NCBI GenBank assembly: GCA_001775355.1
Contig: MEWM01000135.1
Span: forward strand, 518 to 12,428
DNA length: 11,911 nucleotides
Source: a candidate division Zixibacteria bacterium RBG_16_43_9
Lineage (GTDB): Bacteria; Zixibacteria; MSB-5A5; RBG-16-43-9
Direction of reading: 5' to 3'
The notes below the pieces were generated by a model. The model made no database searches. It worked only from the letters and a program-made list of their open reading frames with translations, and was not told where the DNA came from. Positions 1 through 11,725 of the stretch are shown one piece after another (position 1 is the first letter of the stretch; each line of letters opens with the position of its first letter). Made by a program: the position numbers and the translations under genes.

Positions 1-990
1 TAACCCAGATTGATAATCCAGGGTCTTGGAATCGCTTAAGCCCATATAAGCATGCGTGGGTAGTCCGAAATATTTGCCGATCTGATTGTAAGACGAATCT
101 ATCATCATAGTCTCGATTGCGCCCATCGGGGTTGTGCCGGTCCTCATATCAAAGCATGCAGGAGAGCCTCCATAGATGATGGGTGAGCCTTTTTGGGCAA
201 GCTGATGGATAACAATCCCGCTCAGGTTCTCCGCAGTATGCTGGACTAATGCTCCAGCTAAGGTCACCGGTGCAGTCGCTCCTGTCAATGGCATCGAGAC
301 CAGTTCAGCCGGGATTCCGCTTTTAGCGCAATCGATCAGGTTCTGGCATGTCAGGTCACTCCATTTCAAAGGAGGAGAAGGGCAGCAGTCGAAGATGGCT
401 AAGGGCTTTTTCCTCAAGTTATCCTCTCCACCTCTTATGCTGACCAGCATATTTTTCATCACCTTAAAGCCTTCCTTAACAAAAGTCCCGGTGATAACTG
501 GCTTGGAAGAATATAAAAGCGAAATGAAGAGCCGATATCTATCTGCTATCTCCTTGGGCACATCCGAAGGAATCAGGGCAGTGCTCTGAGCTTTGAGGTA
601 TTTTAATCCATCGGTAAGCTGAGCAAACCTGATCAGATCAGAAGTGACCGGCTCTCTGATTTTATCTTTTTTTAAATCATAAATCCACAGAGCCGCAGAG
701 CCAGGGTCAAAATGTACATTGTACTCTTTCAAGTCTAAAGCTAAGTTCCCTTTTCGATCATAGACCTCTATCCCCTTCGGCGCTGTTTTCAGGCACTTTT
801 GCACCAGTTCACTTTTGATATAGATCCTTTTCTTTTTTTTGTCTACTTTTGCTCCGGCTTCTTCTAAAAGCTTCAGACCTTCTTTATTCTCCACAAATAC
901 CCCGATTTTTGAAAGAAGTTCTAAAGCTTCATCTATTATCTGTTCAATCCTTTTCCTGTCTAAAAGCTCCAATTTTGGGCGTCTATTCAA
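1..990 (-). CDS. MttB-like corrinoid methyltransferase (trimethylamine/betaine methyltransferase family), 3' end outside window
   Basis: An open frame of 330 codons runs without a stop from a TTG at 990 to the window edge, so the C-terminus is missing (the family is usually about 470-500 residues). Recognisable segments include an N-terminal helical part (EQIIDEALELLSKIGVFVEN), a central stretch with PLTGATAPVTLAGALVQHTA, then GSPIIYGGSPACFDMRTGT and YMGLSDSKTLDYQSGL at the visible end. These are typical of MttB/MtgB TIM-barrel enzymes, which move a methyl group from a quaternary or tertiary amine to a corrinoid protein. No in-frame TAG is present in the visible part, so pyrrolysine is not indicated, though the end is missing. 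Members without pyrrolysine include glycine betaine methyltransferases; the substrate cannot be told from sequence. It is the last gene after a corrinoid protein, a homocysteine methyltransferase and an activator protein, separated from them by a 197-bp gap holding a cruciform repeat. Confidence 0.85.
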   Translation of the reverse strand, partial: MNRRPKLELLDRKRIEQIIDEALELLSKIGVFVENKEGLKLLEEAGAKVDKKKKRIYIKSELVQKCLKTAPKGIEVYDRKGNLALDLKEYNVHFDPGSAALWIYDLKKDKIREPVTSDLIRFAQLTDGLKYLKAQSTALIPSDVPKEIADRYRLFISLLYSSKPVITGTFVKEGFKVMKNMLVSIRGGEDNLRKKPLAIFDCCPSPPLKWSDLTCQNLIDCAKSGIPAELVSMPLTGATAPVTLAGALVQHTAENLSGIVIHQLAQKGSPIIYGGSPACFDMRTGTTPMGAIETMMIDSSYNQIGKYFGLPTHAYMGLSDSKTLDYQSGL

Positions 991-993
991 GTT

Positions 994-1000
994 CCCTCCT
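994..1000 (-). promoter_or_regulatory. Shine-Dalgarno site fixing a TTG start for the MttB-like gene
   Basis: On the minus strand AGGAGGG lies three bases before TTG at 990. There is no nearby in-frame ATG or GTG with a comparable site, so TTG is the best start. No sigma-70 promoter was seen between this site and the preceding gene; the gap is mostly repeat. Confidence 0.7.
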
Positions 1001-1026
1001 ATCTTAAAAGCTACCCTAAAAGGCCA

Positions 1027-1169
1027 TGTTGGAAAAAGCCCATCCTGTCATTCTGAGGGAGTCCGCCTGCGGCGAGACGACCGAAGAATCCCTTTGATTC
1101 AGGTAGAGATTCTTCGTCTCGCCTTCGGCGGACTCAGAATGACACTCTCCTAGTTTCACTTTTTCAACA
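1027..1169. repeat. Nested inverted repeat (TGTCATTCTGAG family, paired copies) between activator gene and MttB-like gene
   Basis: The core, 1046-1144, starts with TGTCATTCTGAG and ends with its exact reverse complement. Further matching arms lie inside: AGTCCGCC (1060-1067) with GGCGGACT (1127-1134), GGCGAGACG (1071-1079) with CGTCTCGCC (1115-1123), and GAAGAATC (1083-1090) with GATTCTTC (1108-1115). The whole could form a long cruciform or RNA stem. An outer near-perfect pair, TGTTGGAAAAAG (1027-1038) and CTTTTTCAACA (1159-1169), encloses it, suggesting one repeat nested in another. It shares end motifs with the elements at 3585, 4717, 4816 and 6647. Confidence 0.9.
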
Positions 1170-1187
1170 GCCTCTAAAAGGGTCGCA

Positions 1188-1826
1188 CTACGTTTGGCGC
1201 TTCTTAAACCTGCACTTTTTTAAACCGCAAATCTCACAGGGGGTTGACCCTTTATCCCTAAAAGGATTTCTGCTTAAATTAGTTGCAAAAGAGACTGATT
1301 TCCGAGGTATCATCATAAAGGATCGATTCAATCGCACACCTATCTTCTCTGCAGGCAGAAGGTCAAAGATAAATCTCTGAGCTTCTAATTTCCAGCCCCC
1401 ATAACCTGGACTGAACCTGGTATTACCATAAAGTTTCTTTTTTTTAGCCTCATCCGCGATAACCTGATTGAGATGTTCAGCAGTAGATTCTGCTGCGACT
1501 GAGCCGATGGCATCCAGGATAACTGCTCTGGTTAACTCTTCCTGATTGGTCAATCGCTCAACCTGTTTCTCTAAAAGTTTGCCTATAGTACAGATGCATA
1601 AAGCTACCTTTTCGGCATTGAAAAAACATTCTTCAGGCAGTTCCCTGGATTCCCGGATGACAAAGATACCTTCAGGCTTAATCAAATCGCATGAAAAACT
1701 GATCATCTCCTCGACCAGCTTTTTAGACCTCTCCTTTATTTCCTCAGGTTTTGAGGTATGTCCTAACAGCCTGAGAATCTCTTGCTTGCTGACTTCTACT
1801 TGGAAATCTTTGATTATCTTAGCCAT
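1188..1826 (-). CDS. Stand-alone methionine synthase (MetH) activation-domain-like protein
   Basis: This 212-residue protein matches the reactivation domain found at the C-terminus of cobalamin-dependent methionine synthase, which binds AdoMet and helps re-methylate oxidised cob(II)alamin. Key parts are RFSPGYGGW (137-145), the AdoMet-binding RxxPGY region, followed by LEAQRFIFDLL, IGVRLNRSFMMIPRKSVSF (162-180). The tail carries a Cys cluster CEICGLKKC (C197, C200, C205) that could bind a metal or Fe-S cluster; this is inferred. It lies 39 bp after the homocysteine methyltransferase gene in the same direction. Free-standing activation proteins are known in bacteria whose MetH lacks this domain. 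Its likely job is keeping the neighbouring corrinoid protein in the active Co(I)/methyl state. The final codons and the TAG stop lie inside a repeat-derived 16-mer (1177-1192). The ribosome site is weak. Confidence 0.85.
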   Translation of the reverse strand: MAKIIKDFQVEVSKQEILRLLGHTSKPEEIKERSKKLVEEMISFSCDLIKPEGIFVIRESRELPEECFFNAEKVALCICTIGKLLEKQVERLTNQEELTRAVILDAIGSVAAESTAEHLNQVIADEAKKKKLYGNTRFSPGYGGWKLEAQRFIFDLLPAEKIGVRLNRSFMMIPRKSVSFATNLSRNPFRDKGSTPCEICGLKKCRFKKRQT

Positions 1827-1865
1827 CTTTTCAAATGCCTTGGAGTATAAAGCTTTAGCTTTATT

Positions 1866-2786
1866 CTATGATAAACCTAAAGGTTTATATTCCAGGGTCA
1901 TCAAACCTTTCTTCACCATTCTTATAAACTCCGGAGTTGTTCCACAGCAGCCGCCTGCAAAATGGACTCCGAGTTTTATCATTTTCAATACATCATTAGC
2001 GAAGGAAGCTGGTCTCTGGAGATAGACAGTTTTTCCTTTGACAAGTTTCGGCATTCCGGCATTGGGCTGGACGATTATGGGAAGCTTTGTGCTTTTCTTC
2101 ATAACCGAAGCCAGTTTTATCATCTCTTTGCTTCCCAGGGTACAGTTGGCTCCAACCACGTCTGCACCGGCTTGTTTGAGTTTTTTCAAGGAGGATGAGA
2201 CCTCATCTCCCATCAAAGTAAAATATCCCTTACTCTTTTTCTCAAAGGTCATGCAGATGAAAAGGGGAAGAGAAGAGACCTCTCTAACTCCTTCGATCGC
2301 GGCTAAGGCTTCCCGCAGATCATACATTGTCTCAACGGAGAAAAGGTCGATTCCTGCGGAGCGGAGAATTTCAGCTTGCTCTGAGAAGGCTTTCTTGAGG
2401 TCTTTATATTTTACCTTTCCCACTGGTTCTAAAAACTCACCTGTGGGACCGATATTGCCGGCAACATATTTACCATCCGGGCAAGCTTTTCTGGCGATTT
2501 TGACTGCGGTTTTATTTATCTTGTCCATCTTTTTTTCAATTCCGGATTTTTTCAACTTCAGGCTACTTGCGCCAAAGGTATTGGTCTGGATAACATCCGC
2601 ACCTGCCTGAATATATTTCTTATGAATCTTAAGAACTATTTCAGGCTGCGAAAGGTTCCACAGCTCAGGTGGGGTGCCGAAGGGTAACCCGTACGAGAAA
2701 AGCATGGTGCCCATAGCGCCATCAAATAAAAGCGCTCTCCGTCTGGACAAATCCAGTATAGATTTCTTACTTTCTTTTGGACTCAT
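1866..2786 (-). CDS. Homocysteine S-methyltransferase domain protein (MetH N-terminal module)
   Basis: A single-domain 306-residue zinc enzyme that activates homocysteine and accepts a methyl group, giving methionine. The family signatures are FDGAMGTML (21-29), QTNTFGASSLKL (67-78), GNIGPTGEFLEP (110-121), VETMYD (151-156), and the zinc-binding cysteines in GANC (Cys215) and GGCCGTTP (Cys280, Cys281). The layout equals the first module of MetH, but the protein stops where the folate-binding barrel would follow in MetH. Its start overlaps the upstream corrinoid protein gene by 20 bp, pointing to translational coupling and a working partnership. Family members acting alone with S-methylmethionine or betaine (MmuM, BHMT types) are alternatives, but the adjacent corrinoid protein favours methylcobalamin as donor. 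No folate-binding (pterin) domain is encoded in the visible cluster. Confidence 0.9.
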   Translation of the reverse strand: MSPKESKKSILDLSRRRALLFDGAMGTMLFSYGLPFGTPPELWNLSQPEIVLKIHKKYIQAGADVIQTNTFGASSLKLKKSGIEKKMDKINKTAVKIARKACPDGKYVAGNIGPTGEFLEPVGKVKYKDLKKAFSEQAEILRSAGIDLFSVETMYDLREALAAIEGVREVSSLPLFICMTFEKKSKGYFTLMGDEVSSSLKKLKQAGADVVGANCTLGSKEMIKLASVMKKSTKLPIIVQPNAGMPKLVKGKTVYLQRPASFANDVLKMIKLGVHFAGGCCGTTPEFIRMVKKGLMTLEYKPLGLS

Positions 2787-3462
2787 GTCCTATTTCCCTT
2801 TGAGCGACCTTAACTGCCGAGATAGCATTTTCTGCGTATAAATCTGCTCCGATCTCTTTTGCCCAGGATAGGCTGGCTGGTGCTCCGCCCACCATTACTT
2901 TAAGCTTTTTCCTGAGATTTGCTTTTTTCAATCCTTCTATTACTCGGATCTCATTTTGCATAGTGGTGGTAAGCAGGGAAGAAAGGCAGAGAAATCTAGG
3001 CTCATATTTTTTTGCCATTTTCACGAAATTGTCAGATTTTACGTCCACGCCCAGGTCGATCACCTCAAAACCATTGGCTGAAAGCATAGTTGCCACCAGG
3101 GTTTTCCCGATGTCGTGTATATCCCCCTCGATAGTGCCGATTATCACCCTGGGCAAATTTTTCCTCCCAGCTTTACTCTTCAAAATCGGTTCCTGCAGAA
3201 TTGAGATTCCAGCTTTTACTGCCTCTGCACCTAAGACTAACTCCGGCAGAAAACAGCTCCCCTGCTCCCACTTCTCACCTAATTTCTTTATACCTTGAAC
3301 CAGTCCCTTCTCAATTACCAGATAGGAGTCGTAGCCTGATTTGACAGCTTCCGTGGCAAGTTTTTCTGCCTTTTGTTTATCCCCTTCGAGAACTGCATTA
3401 TAGCATTCTTCCAGAAAATTTTTTAACTTTCTTTCCATTCGCTTTAGTTCCTCCATTTTCAC
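2767..3462 (-). CDS. Corrinoid (B12-binding) methyltransferase protein, MtgC/MtbC-like
   Basis: A 231-residue methyl carrier of the kind that shuttles methyl groups between two methyltransferases. Residues about 10-90 form the helical cap module (LVQGIKKLGEKWEQGSCFLPEL). Residues 104-225 form the Rossmann-like cobalamin domain, with DIHDIGK giving the cobalt ligand His116, then SSLLTTTM (161-168) and VGGAPAS (191-197), which contact the cobalamin tail. First gene of the operon, it overlaps the homocysteine methyltransferase gene. Start choice: the longest frame begins at GTG 3462 with an ATG two codons later, but neither has a clear ribosome site. An ATG at residue 9 (3438) follows GGAGG by 11 bases and fits the promoter at 3486-3515, so the mature product may be 8 residues shorter. 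Best matches in character are single-carbon carriers of methylamine, betaine and methanol systems. Confidence 0.9.
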   Translation of the reverse strand: MKMEELKRMERKLKNFLEECYNAVLEGDKQKAEKLATEAVKSGYDSYLVIEKGLVQGIKKLGEKWEQGSCFLPELVLGAEAVKAGISILQEPILKSKAGRKNLPRVIIGTIEGDIHDIGKTLVATMLSANGFEVIDLGVDVKSDNFVKMAKKYEPRFLCLSSLLTTTMQNEIRVIEGLKKANLRKKLKVMVGGAPASLSWAKEIGADLYAENAISAVKVAQREIGHESKRK

Positions 3463-3485: not shown

Positions 3486-3515
3486 ATAATAAGCAATGAA
3501 GCCTTGAGTTGTCAA
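3486..3515 (-). promoter_or_regulatory. Sigma-70-like promoter of the corrinoid/homocysteine methyltransferase operon
   Basis: On the minus strand a perfect -35 TTGACA (3510-3515) and a -10 TATTAT (3486-3491) are separated by 18 bp. Transcription would begin near 3479, leaving a leader of roughly 17 to 41 nt depending on the start codon. That is too short for a SAM or cobalamin riboswitch, so none is expected here. Confidence 0.6.
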
Positions 3516-3584: not shown

Positions 3585-3671
3585 TGTCATGCTGAGTCCC
3601 CACAGGGGACGAAGCATCTAAAGCACCATTACAGATTCTTCGTTCCGCCTTTGGCGGAACTCAGAATGACA
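3585..3671. repeat. Paired inverted repeat, TGTCAT-CTGAG family, between divergent promoters
   Basis: TGTCATGCTGAG (3585-3596) faces CTCAGAATGACA (3660-3671), one mismatch in the 12-bp arms. Each arm encloses its own hairpin with a different core: GTCCCC-ACA-GGGGAC on the left and TTCCGCC-TTT-GGCGGAA on the right. Each arm then ends in GAAG(C/A)ATCT. The element is thus two head-to-head units of one repeat with unrelated but self-complementary cores. No gene lies in 3463-3769 apart from promoters and these repeats. Confidence 0.85.
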
Positions 3672-3745: not shown

Positions 3746-3769
3746 GCTGGCAAAATGTCAGGAGAACAA

Positions 3770-4681
3770 ATGGCAAGGACAATTTCCGAAAGACTATCTA
3801 ACATCTTGGTTTGTCCATTTGACCACTCCAGATTAGCTCTCGAGCAGGCCAGGTTCAGTTGTCAGAAATGCAAACGGGAATTTCAACTCTCCGGTCGAAT
3901 CCCGATAATGCTTGATCCCGGGCTTCTTCAGGCGGATGTTCAGAAGGAAGATGAGGCTCGCAAGAAAGAGGAAATGGAGATATTTGATAATTTAAGCTCT
4001 TATCAGGATTTTATGAACCGTGCGTACTTGAGAGCCATTAAAGAAGATATTTCAAATTCCCTTTTGAGCTTCGATTTAAAGGATAAAGAAATTCTGGAGA
4101 TAGGTGCGGGAATCAGTCTTTTTGCGGGTAAATTAGCAGAGAGAAATCGGGTGGTCCTTACTGACATAAATGAGACTTTGCTTAATCAGAATCCGGAAAA
4201 TTGTGATCTGGTGGTAGCGGATGCTGAGAATCTTCCTTTTCCGGACAGAAGTTTTGATTTTATCTATCTGGTGGGGATTTTGCATCATCTACCTGATCAG
4301 AAAAAAGGGATGCAGGAGATAAAAAGGGTTCTGAAAGAGGACGGAAAAGTATTTATAAGTGAGCCGACCAAGTGGAGCGTCAATTTAATTTATTATCTGG
4401 GCAGAAAGCTGCTCATATTTCTTTTGGGCAAAAATTTCGTCAGAAAACTTGTGGGGTGTGGAACTCCGGATGAGGAATTCCTGGACACAAAAGAACTGAA
4501 GAAGGTTTTCTCAGATGACTTCCAGATTAAAATTAGGAAAATCTCTCCGATCCGGCTTCTGCCCATCAGATTTTTTGATAATCTGGGTTTCGTTCCGAAA
4601 ATAAACCATATCCTGGAGAAAATTCCGATAATCAAAAACTTCGGGGCGATTGCGCAGATAACGCTGTTGCCTAAAAGATAA
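3770..4681 (+). CDS. Class I SAM-dependent methyltransferase with N-terminal Trm112-like segment
   Basis: The protein (303 residues from ATG 3770) starts with a Trm112-like zinc-knuckle segment, LVCPFDHSRL then CQKCKREF, in which the usual second cysteine is Asp, a substitution seen in this family. A class I Rossmann methyltransferase core follows: EILEIGAGIS (motif I, SAM loop), VVLTDIN (acidic end of beta 2), DAENLPFPDRSFDFIYLVGILHHL (motifs II/III) and LKEDGKVFISEP. This is the methyltransferase-11/UbiE-like pattern of enzymes acting on small molecules or lipids; the substrate cannot be named. The C-terminal third has an amphipathic, basic stretch (LIYYLGRKLLIFLLGK) that might touch membranes. 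ATG 3770 is preferred over ATG 3755 because AGGAG (3760-3764) sits 5 bases before it. It is the only plus-strand protein gene in the window, flanked by repeats on both sides. Confidence 0.85.
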   Translation: MARTISERLSNILVCPFDHSRLALEQARFSCQKCKREFQLSGRIPIMLDPGLLQADVQKEDEARKKEEMEIFDNLSSYQDFMNRAYLRAIKEDISNSLLSFDLKDKEILEIGAGISLFAGKLAERNRVVLTDINETLLNQNPENCDLVVADAENLPFPDRSFDFIYLVGILHHLPDQKKGMQEIKRVLKEDGKVFISEPTKWSVNLIYYLGRKLLIFLLGKNFVRKLVGCGTPDEEFLDTKELKKVFSDDFQIKIRKISPIRLLPIRFFDNLGFVPKINHILEKIPIIKNFGAIAQITLLPKR

Positions 4682-5093: not shown

Positions 5094-5166
5094 GCGCCTT
5101 TAGCTCAGCTGGTAGAGCAACTGACTCTTAATCAGTGGGTCGCAGGTTCGATTCCTGCAAGGCGCA
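5094..5166 (+). tRNA. tRNA-Lys (anticodon CUU)
   Basis: A complete 73-base cloverleaf. The acceptor stem GCGCCTT (5094-5100) pairs with AAGGCGC (5159-5165), with discriminator A at 5166. The D stem is GCTC/GAGC (5103-5106, 5115-5118). The anticodon stem ACTGA/TCAGT encloses loop CTCTTAA, with anticodon CTT at 5127-5129. The T arm GCAGG-TTCGATT-CCTGC spans 5142-5158. The 3' CCA is not encoded. No intron or variable-arm extension is present. A good promoter lies upstream, separated by a repeat cassette. Confidence 0.97.
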
Positions 5167-5424: not shown

Positions 5425-6471
5425 CTATGGAAACAGCACTACCTTCCCGGATTCCTTATTGGGTGAGAGGAGTGCATCTATTCCTTTCTGGAAATCCTTT
5501 AAGGGAAATTTGTGGGTGATGACCGGGCTGGGGTCGACTAATTTGTTGTTTAAAAGATTGGAAAGCTCATACCAGGTCTGGAACATCAGGCGTCCGTTTA
5601 TTCCGATTATCTTTGCTCCTTTGAAAATCACATTGGCATTCAGATCGAAAAGGATTTTGTCGGATGGTATTCCGAAAGCGGTAAAAGTTCCTCCCTTTTT
5701 CAGGATTTTAAACCCATCCTCAATTGCCTTTGGAGCGCCGGTCATCTCCAAGACCACGTCTACACCTTCGCCTGAGGTTTGCTCCATTATCTCATCTGCC
5801 GGACTGCTATTTTGAATGCTTAAAGCCACGTCTGCGCCCATCTTTTTCAGAAGCTCAACCCTGAAGGGAAATTCTCCAACTGCAAATACTTTCGCCGCTC
5901 CGACTGCCTTTGCAATTCCTACTGCAAAGCACCCGATCGGTCCATCGCCTAATATGGCGATTATCTTTCCCTGAACATCGCTTTCCATAACTGTATAAGT
6001 GGCATTTCCAAAAGGCTCCTGGATCGAGGCAATTTGAGGAGGCAGGCTGGGGTCGTTTTTCCACACGCAGATATCCGGGATAGCGATATATTCGGCAAAG
6101 GCGCCATCTGTGTCCACGCCCAATATCTTCAAATTTTTGCAGATATGCATCTTGCCGGTTCTACATTGATAACAGGTCTGGTCAGGGATATGAGTCTCCG
6201 CTGAGACAAAATCACCGACCTTTGCTCTTTTCACCTGGGAGCCGATTTCCACTACTTCACCGGCACATTCATGTCCGAACACCAGAGGAGGTTTGATCCT
6301 GTTCTGAGCCCAGTTATCCCAGTTATAAATATGCAGGTCAGTTCCGCAGATGGAGCAGGCTTTGACCTTCACCAGAACCATATCCGGACCGATTTTCGGG
6401 ATTTCGACATAGTCTAATTCTGCGCCCGGGGCTTTGTTCTTCTTCATCACTGCCAGCATCTTGTCTGCCAT
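5425..6471 (-). CDS. tdh: L-threonine 3-dehydrogenase-like zinc alcohol dehydrogenase
   Basis: A 348-residue medium-chain zinc dehydrogenase (E. coli Tdh is 341). Threonine dehydrogenase hallmarks are CGTDLHIYNWDNWAQNRIKPP (catalytic Cys42), FGHE (His67, Glu68) and IASIQEPFGNATYTV (148-161). Tdh oxidises threonine to 2-amino-3-ketobutyrate with NAD+, normally followed by a CoA ligase (Kbl) that yields glycine; no kbl is next to it. The dinucleotide fold carries GDGPIG (175-180). Two oddities: the structural zinc site has Asp97 in place of the first Cys (then C100, C103, C111), and the usual acidic residue that binds the NAD ribose appears as GE (199-200), shifted by one. ATG 6471 has AAGGAG five bases upstream. 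Another related polyol or threonine-like dehydrogenase is possible. It has its own promoter and is the last gene of the right block. Confidence 0.82.
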   Translation of the reverse strand: MADKMLAVMKKNKAPGAELDYVEIPKIGPDMVLVKVKACSICGTDLHIYNWDNWAQNRIKPPLVFGHECAGEVVEIGSQVKRAKVGDFVSAETHIPDQTCYQCRTGKMHICKNLKILGVDTDGAFAEYIAIPDICVWKNDPSLPPQIASIQEPFGNATYTVMESDVQGKIIAILGDGPIGCFAVGIAKAVGAAKVFAVGEFPFRVELLKKMGADVALSIQNSSPADEIMEQTSGEGVDVVLEMTGAPKAIEDGFKILKKGGTFTAFGIPSDKILFDLNANVIFKGAKIIGINGRLMFQTWYELSNLLNNKLVDPSPVITHKFPLKDFQKGIDALLSPNKESGKVVLFP

Positions 6472-7617: not shown

Positions 7618-7860
7618 TCAGGAGGTAAATCTGAAGTTTGCCCAGTCATCCAGACCATTTTCGATTCTTCCATGAAATTCAGTCGCCAGAGTCGAGGTGG
7701 AACACCCCTTTTGAGGTGAGCCATAGAGCCAGTTAGTGGGGGGAATAAATTCTATTCGGTCTGAGGAAAAGGCTTTTACATTCCTTCTGAGGAAAGAAGG
7801 AAACAAATATATGCCCAAACCTGAAAGACCTAAAGTTCTGATGAATTTTCTGCGGTTCAT
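7618..7860 (-). CDS. Short hypothetical protein with twin-arginine-like signal peptide (possibly a truncated gene)
   Basis: An 80-residue ORF starting NRRKFIRTLGLSGLGIYLFPSFL: a twin-arginine motif (RRKFI) followed by a hydrophobic stretch, as expected of a Tat export signal. The remaining 50 or so residues (GCSTSTLATEFHGRIENGLDDWANFRF) match no family I recognise and contain one cysteine. GGAAG lies 8 bases before the ATG. The stop is 3 bases before prmC, so it appears to be co-translated with it. Tat passengers are usually longer folded proteins, so this may be the surviving N-terminus of a larger gene cut by deletion or frameshift. Other frames in this stretch do not continue it. A large repeat cluster begins 22 bp upstream of its start. 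Confidence 0.5.
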   Translation of the reverse strand: MNRRKFIRTLGLSGLGIYLFPSFLRRNVKAFSSDRIEFIPPTNWLYGSPQKGCSTSTLATEFHGRIENGLDDWANFRFTS

Positions 7861-8095: not shown

Positions 8096-9418
8096 CTACC
8101 CTCCGATGAAATTAAATTTGTTTATCTTCATCGCCGGCACGTACATCAAAACACCGTACTGGGGGCAGAGTTTCCTTTCTTTAGTCATCAACTCTACATT
8201 GGAAAAAGCTTCCAAAATGCTCTGACCGATGCGCATATTCTTAACTGCTGATTTTATCTTGCCATTTTCTATCAAAAAAGTCCCATCCCGGGTTGTGCCA
8301 GTGACCTGGGCCTTCATCGGGTTCATATAATTAATATACCAGAAATGGGTGATCAGGATTCCTTTGTCAGTTGAGGCTATCATCTCATCTAAAGTTGAAT
8401 TTCCAGGTGAAATGAGCATATTCTTAGGATAAGGACCAAAGGTGTTATTGGGCTGAAGCGCATGTCCGGTTGATTCAGTCTTATTCTTGTTCGCATAATA
8501 CGAATTATAAACCACTCCCTTTCCGATGCCGTTTTCTATCAAGACGACTTTTTTCTTGGTCACTCCTTCATAATCAAACGGCATACTTTTCATCACCGGG
8601 TCATAAGGATCCTCGATTATGGTGATATTATCACCGGTTATCTTTTCACCTATTTTCATAAAGCTTCTACCTTCGGAGAAGGTTTTCCCACCGAAACCTA
8701 AGAAAGCCAAGAATAGAAGGAAAGATGCCACTGCCGCTTCCTCTAAGATAACTGTATACTCACCTGGCGGAAGCTCCACCGGATTTCTAGATGATAAAGC
8801 TTTCTCCACTGCAATCTGGCTAAGCTTATCAGTATTTATGTCTTTTACCTCTCTGGAAAACCCTTGAGCCCAGCCTGACTGTTCATCTTTACTCACAGTT
8901 AAGGAGAAATTTGCTTTGGTCTCCTGAAAATATTGTCTTGTCCCCAGGGAATTAACCACTGCCGTAACATCAGTCTCAGTTTGAAAAGCTCCTGCAGAGA
9001 TTAGATCATTCTTTTGAGACTTGTCAACAGCTATTTTGACACCTTTAGCTCTATCGTCAGGAGAGAAATTATGAGTGTTATTATAAAAACCCTTTACTTC
9101 TGGTGCTGGACCTGATTTAGGTAATAAGACGAAATCAGGGTCATCTTTTTGATTTTTCGCAATCTCAATTGCATCTTTAACGACTTTTTTGATCCCGTCC
9201 TCATCTATTTTATTGGTCACAGCTACGCCAAGCTTTTTACCTAATACTGCTCTAGCCATAACCGTATGATCAGCTCTTCCCATATTCTGGTGAATGATGT
9301 TCTCTGCAAATCTGGTCAGATAAAAATCCTCCTCCAATAAAAGCAACTCAATCTGGTCTGCATCTGAATATTTCAGACCCTTTTCCAAAATCTCTAAGGC
9401 TTTTCCTTTTGAAATCAT
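8096..9418 (-). CDS. tldE: TldE/PmbA family subunit of the TldD-TldE protease
   Basis: A 440-residue member of the PmbA/TldE family, the partner without the metal motif. In known systems TldD and TldE form a heterodimeric zinc metalloprotease that cleaves unfolded peptides, for example trimming the microcin B17 leader and degrading the CcdA antitoxin. The family pattern is seen in the N-terminal FAENIIHQNMGRADHTVMARAVLGKKLGVAVTN region, in the central VILEEAAVASFLLFLAFLGFGGK segment where TldD has its HExxxH helix, and in the C-terminal TGTTRDGTFLIENGKI. It begins 4 bases after the tldD stop, so the two are co-transcribed. The substrate here is unknown; no bacteriocin precursor was found next to it. 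A repeat cluster follows the stop. Confidence 0.93.
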   Translation of the reverse strand: MISKGKALEILEKGLKYSDADQIELLLLEEDFYLTRFAENIIHQNMGRADHTVMARAVLGKKLGVAVTNKIDEDGIKKVVKDAIEIAKNQKDDPDFVLLPKSGPAPEVKGFYNNTHNFSPDDRAKGVKIAVDKSQKNDLISAGAFQTETDVTAVVNSLGTRQYFQETKANFSLTVSKDEQSGWAQGFSREVKDINTDKLSQIAVEKALSSRNPVELPPGEYTVILEEAAVASFLLFLAFLGFGGKTFSEGRSFMKIGEKITGDNITIIEDPYDPVMKSMPFDYEGVTKKKVVLIENGIGKGVVYNSYYANKNKTESTGHALQPNNTFGPYPKNMLISPGNSTLDEMIASTDKGILITHFWYINYMNPMKAQVTGTTRDGTFLIENGKIKSAVKNMRIGQSILEAFSNVELMTKERKLCPQYGVLMYVPAMKINKFNFIGG

Positions 9419-9422
9419 AAGA

Positions 9423-10868
9423 TCAGCTTCCTACTTTCACATTTCTGAACCTGGCAGGGGATGCTCCCTGGCCTGTTCGGGCGTTTTGCCCGGGTTGACC
9501 TTTACCACAATTGGGTGTGCCCCAGACTTTGAAATATTTTTCGCTGCAGATTCCATCGCAGGAGTTCCAGAACTCAACTGTATTGCCTGAATAAGTCGGG
9601 TTTTTTATCATCTCACCCAATTTTCCGTTTTTTATCTCCCAGCCGATCTGGCATCCCATCTGGAAATTCTCCCGGTTATCATCTATGCTCCAGGAGGAGA
9701 CTGTCTCCATATAGATTCCGTCATCCACTTCAGAAATCAAATCCTCAAAACTATAATTCCCAGGTATAAGAATCGTATTGGTCATACGGATAATCGGGAT
9801 ATTTCCCCAGCCTTCAGCTCTCATCGAGCCGTTGGATGAAGTTTTGACCAATGATGCAGTTTCCCTTGATGTCAAGTATCCCACGAGTAGCCCATCCTGG
9901 ATGAGGTCTTTTCTTTCGGCTTTGACCCCCTCATCATCATAACCGAAGCTTCCCAGACCGCCGGGATAAGTTGGGTCTGTTACAACGTTGATCACATCTG
10001 AGGCATATTTGAGTTTGTTCAATTTATCCAGTGTCGCAAAGCTTGTCCCGGAAAAGTTTTTCTCCGCGCCCAAGACCCTGTCCAATTCTAATGGATGACC
10101 GATAGACTCGTGAATCTGCAATGAAAGCTGAGCACCATCTAAAACCAACGCCTTTATTCCTGACGGACAATCTTTAGCTGAAAGCAAAGCTTTTGCCTGC
10201 TGGGCTATTTTTTCACAGTTTTCCTCAAGGTTTAACTCATTGATCAACTCATACCCTTTACACTCATATTGACCATTGGAATCCGGATAAGACCTTTTTC
10301 CCATCTCCCTTCTGGATTTCATAGCTGTTGCTTCTATGCCTGCTCCGCTCTGGATTAACATCTGCTCAATTTGAGAGCCTTCTGAGCTTGAAAAGAATCT
10401 GCTCTCTTTTCTGAAATCCATAAAGGCAGAAGCTGAGGTGATGCCATCTGTTTTCCTTAACAATTGATCTAAGGCTAAAAGGTAATCTAATTTTTCTTTG
10501 AGGGGGATGGTAAAAGGGTCTATCTGGACTGGATTTCTGTATGAATCTTTAGTCTTACTAAGAAGAGCCAAGACTAAATCGTTTTTCTTGAGCTTGGCTG
10601 AGGCTCTGGCAATTTTTACTGCAAGGTCAGCGGTTTTCTTAAGGTTATTTTCATTCAGATCAGAAGAGGAGGCAAAGCCCCAGGCACCATCTGCAATTAC
10701 CCTTATCCCAAAGCCAAAAGAGTTGTTTTTCTCAAGTAACTTCGATGCTCCGTTTTCGACCGAGATGTTCTCATCCTCAGTATTGACAATCCTGATGTCC
10801 GCATAACTTGCCCCTTTTGATTTGGCGGAATTCAGGGCAATCTCTGAGGCTTTTTTAAAATTGATCAT
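9423..10868 (-). CDS. tldD: TldD metalloprotease subunit
   Basis: A 481-residue protein of the TldD family, full length. The metal site is the HExxxH-type motif HESIGHPLELD (His253, Glu254, His258), and the C-terminal TPNCGKGQPGQ supplies the conserved cysteine at 454. Other family segments are SFGFGIRVIADGAWGFASS (50-68) and LGSFGYDDEGVKAERKDLIQDGLLVGYLTSR. It is the catalytic half that acts with TldE, encoded immediately downstream. Its ATG overlaps the stop of the upstream membrane protein gene as ATGA (4-bp overlap), so the three genes are probably translated together. The protease is cytoplasmic in known cases and works on peptides threaded into a closed chamber. Nothing is truncated or missing. 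Confidence 0.95.
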   Translation of the reverse strand: MINFKKASEIALNSAKSKGASYADIRIVNTEDENISVENGASKLLEKNNSFGFGIRVIADGAWGFASSSDLNENNLKKTADLAVKIARASAKLKKNDLVLALLSKTKDSYRNPVQIDPFTIPLKEKLDYLLALDQLLRKTDGITSASAFMDFRKESRFFSSSEGSQIEQMLIQSGAGIEATAMKSRREMGKRSYPDSNGQYECKGYELINELNLEENCEKIAQQAKALLSAKDCPSGIKALVLDGAQLSLQIHESIGHPLELDRVLGAEKNFSGTSFATLDKLNKLKYASDVINVVTDPTYPGGLGSFGYDDEGVKAERKDLIQDGLLVGYLTSRETASLVKTSSNGSMRAEGWGNIPIIRMTNTILIPGNYSFEDLISEVDDGIYMETVSSWSIDDNRENFQMGCQIGWEIKNGKLGEMIKNPTYSGNTVEFWNSCDGICSEKYFKVWGTPNCGKGQPGQNARTGQGASPARFRNVKVGS

Positions 10869-11725
10869 ATGCTGTGAGGGATAAGGTAAATTGCTAAAGT
10901 TAAAATGTATCCTAATATGCCAAACCAGGCCAGGGTTTTATCCGGCAAAAGATTTTTAGTTTTGTCCTTCTTAAAGGCTGAGCCTTTTATCAGAATCAAA
11001 AAGATAATCCAGTAGAATATAAGAATCGAGGTCTTGCTGTCAGTTATATCCGTGAAAATTGGGAAACCTCCCCAGATCTCTCCAAAGGTCAGGTTGGTAA
11101 CCAGAATACCTAAAGGGACTCCTCCGATGAAAGAAAGAATTGTCGCCCACAGACTGTAAACAGAGAGTTGTCTGAGCGAATCTTTGCCCCATAATACCTC
11201 CAGGGAAGAGAACAGAACCAAGAATACAAAGAAAACAGAGGCAAACATCATCAGCACATGAGGTCCGATAACATAAGGAGGGACTTTACCCTTGAATTTA
11301 ACCAGAAAAGGATTGTTTAAAAGGTCCAATTTTTCAGGCAAGGTCAATATTCTCTTACCCTGGCTATCAGATAAGGAAAGATAATAATAGGCCCTTTTCC
11401 CTTTTGGCTGTGAAGGAATAACTGCTGAAAACTGGTTAGCTTTTCCTTCGACTGGCTGCATTCTCAGACTGGTGTATTCACCTTCTCCTTTTCCAATCTT
11501 GTAAAAAAGGTTTAATGAATACTTATCCGCGGTTTCCGGAGTCGTTAGGGTGGCAATTATTTCTACTTCACCTGATCCGACTTTCTCAGTGACAGTTGTA
11601 TGGGAAAGCTTTATTGCACCTGAGGTGACTTCCTCAAACTCTGGCACGCGTATAGATATGTGCCGGGCGATGCCGAGTAAAATAACGGTCAAAACGAAAG
11701 CTAAGACGTATTTGAAAAGCTTCAT
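10865..11725 (-). CDS. Uncharacterised membrane protein with N-terminal exported domain
   Basis: I do not recognise a named family. The 286-residue protein has one hydrophobic segment at residues 4-21 (anchor or uncleaved signal) and a soluble region of about 25-150 rich in beta-strand patterns. That region ends in AYYYLSLSDSQGKRILTLPE, which recalls the YYxxxxDxxG strands of Ig-like or fibronectin-type domains (inference). Four further hydrophobic segments follow, near 153-176, 189-213, 232-248 and 266-284. The predicted layout is an outward-facing domain followed by a helical bundle. A strong Shine-Dalgarno run (GGAGGGAGG) precedes the ATG, 10 bases after the prfA stop. The stop overlaps tldD by 4 bp. 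Tight coupling to a peptide-cleaving protease suggests a shared role, unproven. Confidence 0.75.
   Translation of the reverse strand: MKLFKYVLAFVLTVILLGIARHISIRVPEFEEVTSGAIKLSHTTVTEKVGSGEVEIIATLTTPETADKYSLNLFYKIGKGEGEYTSLRMQPVEGKANQFSAVIPSQPKGKRAYYYLSLSDSQGKRILTLPEKLDLLNNPFLVKFKGKVPPYVIGPHVLMMFASVFFVFLVLFSSLEVLWGKDSLRQLSVYSLWATILSFIGGVPLGILVTNLTFGEIWGGFPIFTDITDSKTSILIFYWIIFLILIKGSAFKKDKTKNLLPDKTLAWFGILGYILTLAIYLIPHSI

Follow-up and report, generated by a model that had tools for sequence, protein, structure and literature searches.

A four-gene operon of Zixibacteria as a probable methionine synthase fed by an MttB-superfamily enzyme in place of a folate module

Can a cobalamin-dependent methionine synthase do without its folate module and take its methyl groups from a methylated amine instead? 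The question is raised by an 11,911-nucleotide stretch of DNA (hereinafter the window, meaning the whole stretch analysed), which comprises positions 518-12428 of contig C135 in the draft genome of candidate division Zixibacteria bacterium RBG_16_43_9 (G000; 1.95 Mb, 160 contigs, 74% complete). On its minus strand, from position 3462 down to 1, genes for a corrinoid protein (cob), a zinc homocysteine methyltransferase (HMT; hmt), a MetH-type reactivation protein (act) and an MttB-like enzyme (mttB) lie in succession, with a 20-base overlap between the first two. An earlier note, made from the letters of the window, had described these as a methionine synthase split into consecutive genes, two of them overlapping, followed by an mttB-like gene and lacking a folate module; both the arrangement and the absence of a pterin-binding gene from the cluster held up on closer analysis. 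We consider it likely, judging from domain content and genomic context, that the operon encodes a four-part, cobalamin-dependent and folate-independent methionine synthase that is fed from a methylated donor via MttB.

The first gene (2767..3462, minus strand, GTG start) codes for a corrinoid (B12-binding) protein of 231 residues that belongs to the MttC/MtbC/MtgC type (PF02310, 7.1e-26; PF02607, 8.5e-19). It retains the DxHxxG motif of the cobalt ligand in MetH B12 domains (D114, H116, G119) and a threonine-rich SxLLTTTM stretch that aligns with MttC, for which a ligand triad has been described (PMC9842639). Its best match in the PDB is MttC (7xcn_M, 185.5 bits), as against at most 87.5 bits for the B12 domains of MetH, and it scores 214.2 bits with TIGR02370, slightly below the cut-off of 215.3. 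In a 47-row tree, the corrinoid proteins of one of the two gene orders found in the phylum (order A, below) group with MttC (support 96/91), and all operon corrinoid proteins, MttC and the proteins of loci L027, L028 and L053 are split from the MetH domains (99/97). Our trees covered 12 operon genomes, with the named loci serving only in part as outgroups (those above L066 were thinned by number and short pieces dropped).

The second gene (1866..2786, minus strand) codes for a zinc homocysteine S-methyltransferase of 306 residues (PF02574, 3.8e-71, 240.7 bits) with the motifs GANC and GGCCG, whose closest PDB entry is the homocysteine domain of Thermotoga MetH (216.1 bits). It has the three cysteines of the MetH domain (C215, C280 and C281, in GANC and GGCC), invariant in 13/13 aligned rows, which we take to be the zinc ligands. 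PF02574 is its only match, and the MetE catalytic fold (PF01717) that marks the core methionine synthases MesA-MesD is absent from it. The protein also matches the betaine-homocysteine methyltransferase model PRK07534, which brings up the alternative that HMT on its own moves a methyl group from betaine or dimethylsulfoniopropionate to homocysteine, as Bmt of Phaeobacter inhibens does in vitro without cobalamin or folate (PMC12366255), the corrinoid genes serving another purpose. This we regard as very improbable: the score of 225.4 bits stays below the model's cut-off of 338, and this reading would not account for the close retention of the corrinoid protein, the reactivation protein and MttB as partners.

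The third gene (1188..1826, minus strand) encodes a stand-alone MetH-type reactivation protein of 212 residues (PF02965, 1.5e-9, 38.2 bits against a cut-off of 25), which also matches the methionine synthase chain 1j6r_A (7.7e-8). It displays an RxxPGY motif (R137-Y142) and a C-terminal CxxCxxxxC motif, the cysteines of which (C197, C200 and C205) are invariant in 21/21 rows. A RamA-type activator, sought by the RamA C-terminal domain (RACo_C_ter, PF14574), was found in none of the 59 relatives used for our pathway tallies; in a control with the same profile, Methanosarcina acetivorans was the only one of 14 genomes with a match.

The fourth gene codes for a non-pyrrolysine member of the MttB superfamily, of which the window holds the N-terminal 330 of 491 residues before its edge cuts the gene (1..990, minus strand; PF06253, 1.8e-56). 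It begins with TTG behind an AGGAGG at 1000-995 and could be completed on the full contig (L006 32-1507), where it contains a run of X residues from Ns and stops 31 bases off the contig end; the full-length protein matches PF06253 over its length (6.4e-74, 249 bits, cut-off 25). Alignment of the orthologue from the same-genus genome G002 to MttB (7xcl) and MtgB (2qne) located the pyrrolysine position, which is occupied by leucine (GLSDSK) in this protein and in 16/16 rows from the phylum, as in MtgB, and by cysteine in both Myxococcota rows. A pyrrolysine-type trimethylamine methyltransferase could be ruled out by this leucine and by the TIGR02369 score of 282 bits for the part in the window, against a cut-off of 525. 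Other apparent signs of pyrrolysine were likewise set aside: Rfam PYLIS_3 matches in the mttB genes of relatives (L121, L124) lie inside coding sequence near the pyrrolysine position and were taken as coding similarity; in G027, an in-frame TAG of mttB comes after RSRWQ close to the C-terminus, away from that site; and a TAG in G071 falls outside the intact 485-residue frame.

We searched 132 genomes of the phylum, all in the class of the window, for this set of genes. The reactivation proteins of three of them (G036, G024 and G027) are identical to database entries (P0001, P0008, P0020) labelled 'candidate division Zixibacteria' or 'Candidatus Zixiibacteriota', but for an additional first residue in one pair. 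The stand-alone reactivation gene is present in 56 of the 64 genomes with a domain match, the remaining eight matches (G032, G052, G077, G079, G085, G099, G100, G102) being weak ones in frames that are partial or of MetH length; MttB is present in 55 genomes, both genes in 53 and either in 58. This co-occurrence is strong (Fisher p = 1.3e-30, uncorrected for relatedness), and in 49 of the 53 the two genes lie at most 3 kb apart on one contig (G072 being counted through a fragment of the reactivation gene, with a larger match elsewhere in its genome), so that a chance neighborhood is ruled out by co-occurrence and adjacency, and the survey of relatives that the earlier note had called for came out in favor of a conserved unit. 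MttB is a single-copy gene, with one match in 53/55 genomes and two partial matches in the other two. Evolutionary distances of the four proteins are correlated at r 0.94-0.97 (10 genomes), as against 0.57-0.71 with dihydropteroate synthase (DHPS; six genomes). The operon is broken at contig ends in G055, G086, G051, G128 and G063, and in G121 the reactivation gene and MttB are on different contigs, on one of which MttB starts at base 171. Two gene orders occur in the phylum, differing by family, namely cob-hmt-act-mttB (order A) and mttB-act-cob-hmt (order B); a third, mttB-cob-act-hmt, is found at L027, a metagenome-assembled genome (MAG) titled Deltaproteobacteria and placed in Myxococcota. 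By identity and in trees in which several forks are not strongly supported, the order-A HMT stands closer to L027/L028 than to its order-B counterpart, and the order-B corrinoid protein stands closer to L027/L028 than to its order-A counterpart; one set of modules may therefore have been assembled repeatedly. Beyond the phylum, homologues of the reactivation protein are attributed by their sources to Cloacimonadota, WOR-3 and an Acidobacteria-like entry, and those of MttB to Cloacimonetes and TA06.

How could these components work together? We infer the chemical steps, the donor class and the acceptor homocysteine as follows. MttB, in the place of the pterin domain of MetH, would charge the Co(I) of the corrinoid protein with a methyl group from a methylated compound, a tertiary or quaternary amine being the most likely donor; the corrinoid protein would deliver it to the zinc HMT, yielding methionine from homocysteine; and when oxidation leaves Co(II), the MetH-type reactivation protein would restore the cobalt with S-adenosylmethionine (SAM) and a reductant, replacing RamA.

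A pterin-binding gene was not found beside the cluster, either up to the end of the contig or among the genes past mttB in G002, where the neighbors beyond the window's position 1, about which the earlier note had asked, are a TPR protein and then a class V aminotransferase on the opposite strand. To look further, we tallied folate-linked enzymes in the 59 relatives, taking a PF01717 match as MetE, a PF00809 match in a frame of more than 1,100 residues as MetH and PF02219 as methylene-folate reductase (MTHFR). The reactivation gene served to count operon genomes, 24 in all, among them G007 and G009, where MttB lies apart; G055, with only a fragment, is scored as lacking the operon. MetE-type proteins occur in 28 of the relatives, MetH in 10 and MTHFR in 37. 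MTHFR is present in 34 of the 36 genomes with MetE or MetH as against two (G007, G016) of the 10 operon genomes that lack both (Fisher p = 7e-6); thus, it goes with the folate-dependent synthases and not with the operon, a pattern that fits a replacement of the folate module by MttB. The eight operon genomes devoid of detectable MetE, MetH and MTHFR are (with % completeness) G004 (98), G006 (86), G009 (76), G024 (96), G037 (94), G042 (95), G047 (94) and G054 (100), of which G037 was left out of the clean cases because its PF00809 match, 49 residues at the end of a contig, is a possible part of MetH. The operon is accordingly the only methionine synthase found in several relatives. That in several lineages it is indeed the sole synthase, with MTHFR lost and all new methyl groups of methionine and SAM salvaged via MttB, so that the methyl cycle is cut off from folate, is a tentative extension that we hold possible.

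The same tallies bear on a known arrangement, in which a split MetH and an amine demethylase share the corrinoid protein and exchange methyl groups with folate via a pterin methyltransferase encoded elsewhere. This has been demonstrated in Ruegeria pomeroyi, where both functions depend on the pterin-binding MtgD (PMC12478193). Here, PF00809 matches of MetH length were found in only 10/59 relatives; of the other 49, two have no PF00809 match and the rest have matches at the level of DHPS or in pieces. Six of the 10 are among the 24 operon genomes, so that the earlier note's proviso that no complete MetH be encoded elsewhere holds in its own genus and family (none in the 74% complete genome of the window or in G001-G003) and fails in these six. 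The hypothesis of a hidden pterin enzyme was rejected for all seven PF00809 candidates scanned with NCBIfam (those of G002, G004, G024, G042, G047 and G054 and a fragment in the window's genome), every one of which is DHPS above the model's cut-off; the candidates of G001 and G006 were not among these, and the rest were judged by score. In the near-complete, operon-only G004, G024, G042, G047 and G054 this DHPS is the sole PF00809 match, and a non-DHPS candidate of the MtgD type was found neither in these five nor in the 74% complete genome of the window. Together with the absence of the RamA C-terminal domain from the 59 relatives and of MTHFR from eight of the 10 genomes in which the operon occurs and MetE and MetH do not, this makes a Ruegeria-like sharing of the corrinoid protein quite unlikely, and a folate-independent passage of methyl groups from MttB via the corrinoid protein to HMT remains our preferred reading. 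The folP (DHPS) gene of the window's genome lies in two pieces with a short gap (G000:C87:4036-4757; L108), the larger being DHPS, which points to an assembly error or a broken gene.

Several observations weigh against this preference. The window's own species has a probable folate-dependent alternative: on contig C27 (L107 529-4667, minus strand), a gene for a fused HMT-MTHFR (757.5 bits with PRK08645, cut-off 453) adjoins two MetE-like genes, one of which scores 407.5 with the methionine synthase model PRK04326 (cut-off 406) and the other of which matches both MetE domains about equally. They resemble the split MetE of archaea, which its authors predicted to use methyl folates (PMC7857596). 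Thus, when metE, metH and metF were looked for as the earlier note had advised, no full metH turned up in this 74% complete genome, and a probable split MetE beside an MTHFR fusion did; given this pair, the operon would be an extra, second or salvage route in its own species. MTHFR as such is not rarer with the operon (14/24 operon and 23/35 other genomes). Moreover, 13/59 relatives have no operon, MetE or MetH, one of them (G055) having an operon fragment at a contig end, so that methionine may come from outside and the absence of MTHFR alone proves little. The relatives in the tallies are not independent, the drafts are incomplete, PF01717 matches are not necessarily methionine synthases, and our Fisher tests ignore both relatedness and gaps in the drafts. 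MttB is also not always in place: absence from the cluster, which the earlier note had accepted as evidence against its idea, proved rare. In genus g5 MttB sits on a different contig, its position being taken by a peptidase gene in G007 and by an ABC transporter gene in G009; G119 (one contig, 83% complete) has the other three genes and no MttB match; and the other cases fetched fall at contig ends. In L028, the reactivation gene was not found near mttB, cob and hmt. A search for an upstream riboswitch of the SAM or cobalamin type recovered none at threshold. Finally, uptake of betaine does not track the operon: BCCT transporters occur in one of the 59 relatives, not an operon genome, and OpuAC in 13 (6/24 operon and 7/35 other genomes; Fisher p = 0.75), and the window's genome has neither.

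Two features of the folate-linked tallies deserve mention in their own right. The C27 locus looks like an archaeal-type split MetE in a bacterial phylum, in which 25/59 relatives have two or three PF01717 matches lying in different frames and not always on one contig. Nine genomes, all at least 94% complete (G013, G017, G025, G034, G038, G041, G043, G048, G056), lack a match to MetE, MetH or the operon and are possible methionine auxotrophs or carriers of an unrecognized synthase.

Could the operon then serve catabolism or detoxification, with homocysteine merely a convenient acceptor, or with another thiol as the true one? HMT-family enzymes vary in substrate, and MetE or MetH is also encoded in 14/24 operon genomes (that of the window and 13 more), in which the operon is often not the sole route. 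The MttB systems described in PMC12155760 and PMC12478193 serve growth on methylated amines. We nonetheless deem such a demethylase unlikely: MttB is single-copy, the cluster offers no acceptor other than HMT, which is closest to the homocysteine domain of MetH, the activator is of the MetH type with no RamA C-terminal domain in the 59 relatives, and some operon genomes have no other methionine synthase that we could find.

Regarding the donor, the leucine at the pyrrolysine position and the nearly equal scores of the G002 orthologue with MtgB (195.6 bits) and pyrrolysine MttB (192 bits) do not allow the substrate to be read from the MttB sequence. Known substrates of the superfamily are quaternary amines (phosphocholine and carboxylated betaines) and, with pyrrolysine, trimethylamine (PMC12155760). 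The earlier note had proposed that methionine is made straight from a methylated amine such as a betaine, with the corrinoid protein as carrier; MttB as a conserved fourth partner and the lack of a pterin gene speak for the route, and betaine as its donor finds no backing in the distribution of BCCT and OpuAC, the two families to which our uptake test was confined and which we dropped as a substrate hint. In the MAGs L027 and L028, transporter genes adjoin the operon (ABC_sub_bind; a TrpX-like protein below the TrpX cut-off) and point to no donor either, and chloromethane CdmB and the 'MtgB' of Bathyarchaeia were discarded as parallels in donor chemistry, being other families by their authors' account. 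The unlinked uptake of betaine, set against several near-complete genomes in which no synthase other than the operon was found, suggests a further alternative, namely that MttB proteins of this clade draw on a donor that the cell itself makes, perhaps a methyl pterin or other methyl carrier, the operon then being a complete de novo synthase. We rate this as improbable, given that PF02219 MTHFR is absent from eight of the 10 genomes whose only synthase found is the operon and that the substrates described for the superfamily in PMC12155760 are all methylated amines.

Upstream of the operon is a putative promoter, TTGACA-18-TATTAT (3486..3515, minus strand; 11/12 consensus matches, by consensus only), 23 bases before the corrinoid gene; the scanned region has nine promoter-like sites where 4.0 are expected. 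A palindromic dispersed element lies between act and mttB (1047-1143) and upstream of cob (3586-3670), with GTCATTCTGAG-like ends in inverted orientation (five matches with at most one mismatch in the window, 0.3 expected) and exact copies at other loci of the same genome and of G001, G002 and G009. Divergent from the operon, a SAM-dependent methyltransferase (3755-4681, plus strand), which also adjoins it in G002 and G003, weakly matches the model of the corrinoid-associated methyltransferase CpaM (27.6 bits, cut-off 180). The window further holds a tRNA gene (5094-5166, plus strand; Rfam RF00005, 76.1 bits) and, on the minus strand, genes for an L-threonine 3-dehydrogenase-like protein (5425-6471; above the cut-off of PRK05396 and slightly below that of TIGR00692), an 80-residue frame with a twin-arginine-like N-terminus, MNRRKFIRTLG (7618-7860), possibly a truncated secreted protein, and an adjacent TldE/TldD-type protease pair with PmbA_TldD domains (8096-10868), preceded by a 286-residue protein without a Pfam or NCBIfam match (10865-11725).

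If our proposal is true, the folate module of methionine synthase would have been exchanged for an amine methyltransferase, opening a direct route from amine to methionine, and a large group of MttB proteins with no known substrate would gain a function. Some uncultured bacteria would then take the methyl groups of SAM from methylated compounds around them and not from folate, which counsels caution in inferring methionine auxotrophy where metE, metH or metF is missing.

Among known systems, the closest are MtgBCDE of Ruegeria and the split MetH of Phaeobacter inhibens, which likewise have no full MetH and join a separate corrinoid protein, HMT and MttB via the corrinoid (PMC12478193; PMC5764234). 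Both need a pterin protein (MtgD and PGA1_c16040, respectively) and involve RamA-like and DUF1638 proteins, whereas the present cluster has no pterin protein and has a PF02965 activator for RamA; a PF02965 protein was not found in P. inhibens. In Ruegeria, MttB, corrinoid and HMT families are coupled with a pterin protein, the mtgD mutant needs methionine and fails to grow on betaine even with it, and the abundance of RamA and DUF1638 proteins is raised on such substrates; in Sinorhizobium meliloti MtgBCDE are co-located, so that clustering together with the pterin protein has already been published (PMC12478193). The view of the earlier note that MttB would be an unusual methyl source is hence precedented in part by Ruegeria and stands for the cluster without a pterin protein. 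In the titles, abstracts and text passages surveyed from the open-access literature, we found no description of MttB with HMT and no pterin protein; the concept is partly known, and the four-gene unit without a pterin protein is real, conserved and undescribed in what was surveyed.

As in Desulfitobacterium MtgB/MtgC (PMC12478193) and the MtpB, MtcB, MtyB and MthB systems of Eubacterium limosum (PMC12155760; PMC8604678), a non-pyrrolysine MttB, with the leucine of MtgB, would charge a corrinoid protein; unlike in those systems, where the acceptor is folate (coenzyme M in methanogens) and the activator of the RamA type, the acceptor protein here would be HMT. The split MetH of anaerobes (Thermotoga and Bacillota loci) shares the homocysteine domain and the separate reactivation gene, which at 31/80 loci is near a long HMT-B12 protein, mostly of about 800 residues; that chain probably keeps the pterin domain, to judge by its length and known architecture, whereas the operon lacks this domain and has an MttC-type B12 protein. 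Folate independence is shared with MesA-MesD, three families of which are predicted to take methyl groups from corrinoid proteins of energy pathways (PMC7857596); these are PF01717 (MetE-type) enzymes, unlike the PF02574 acceptor enzyme of the operon, which has its own donor methyltransferase. The operon would work like a split methionine synthase and is a member of neither MetH nor MtgBCDE, since a defining feature of each that we looked for is missing from it.

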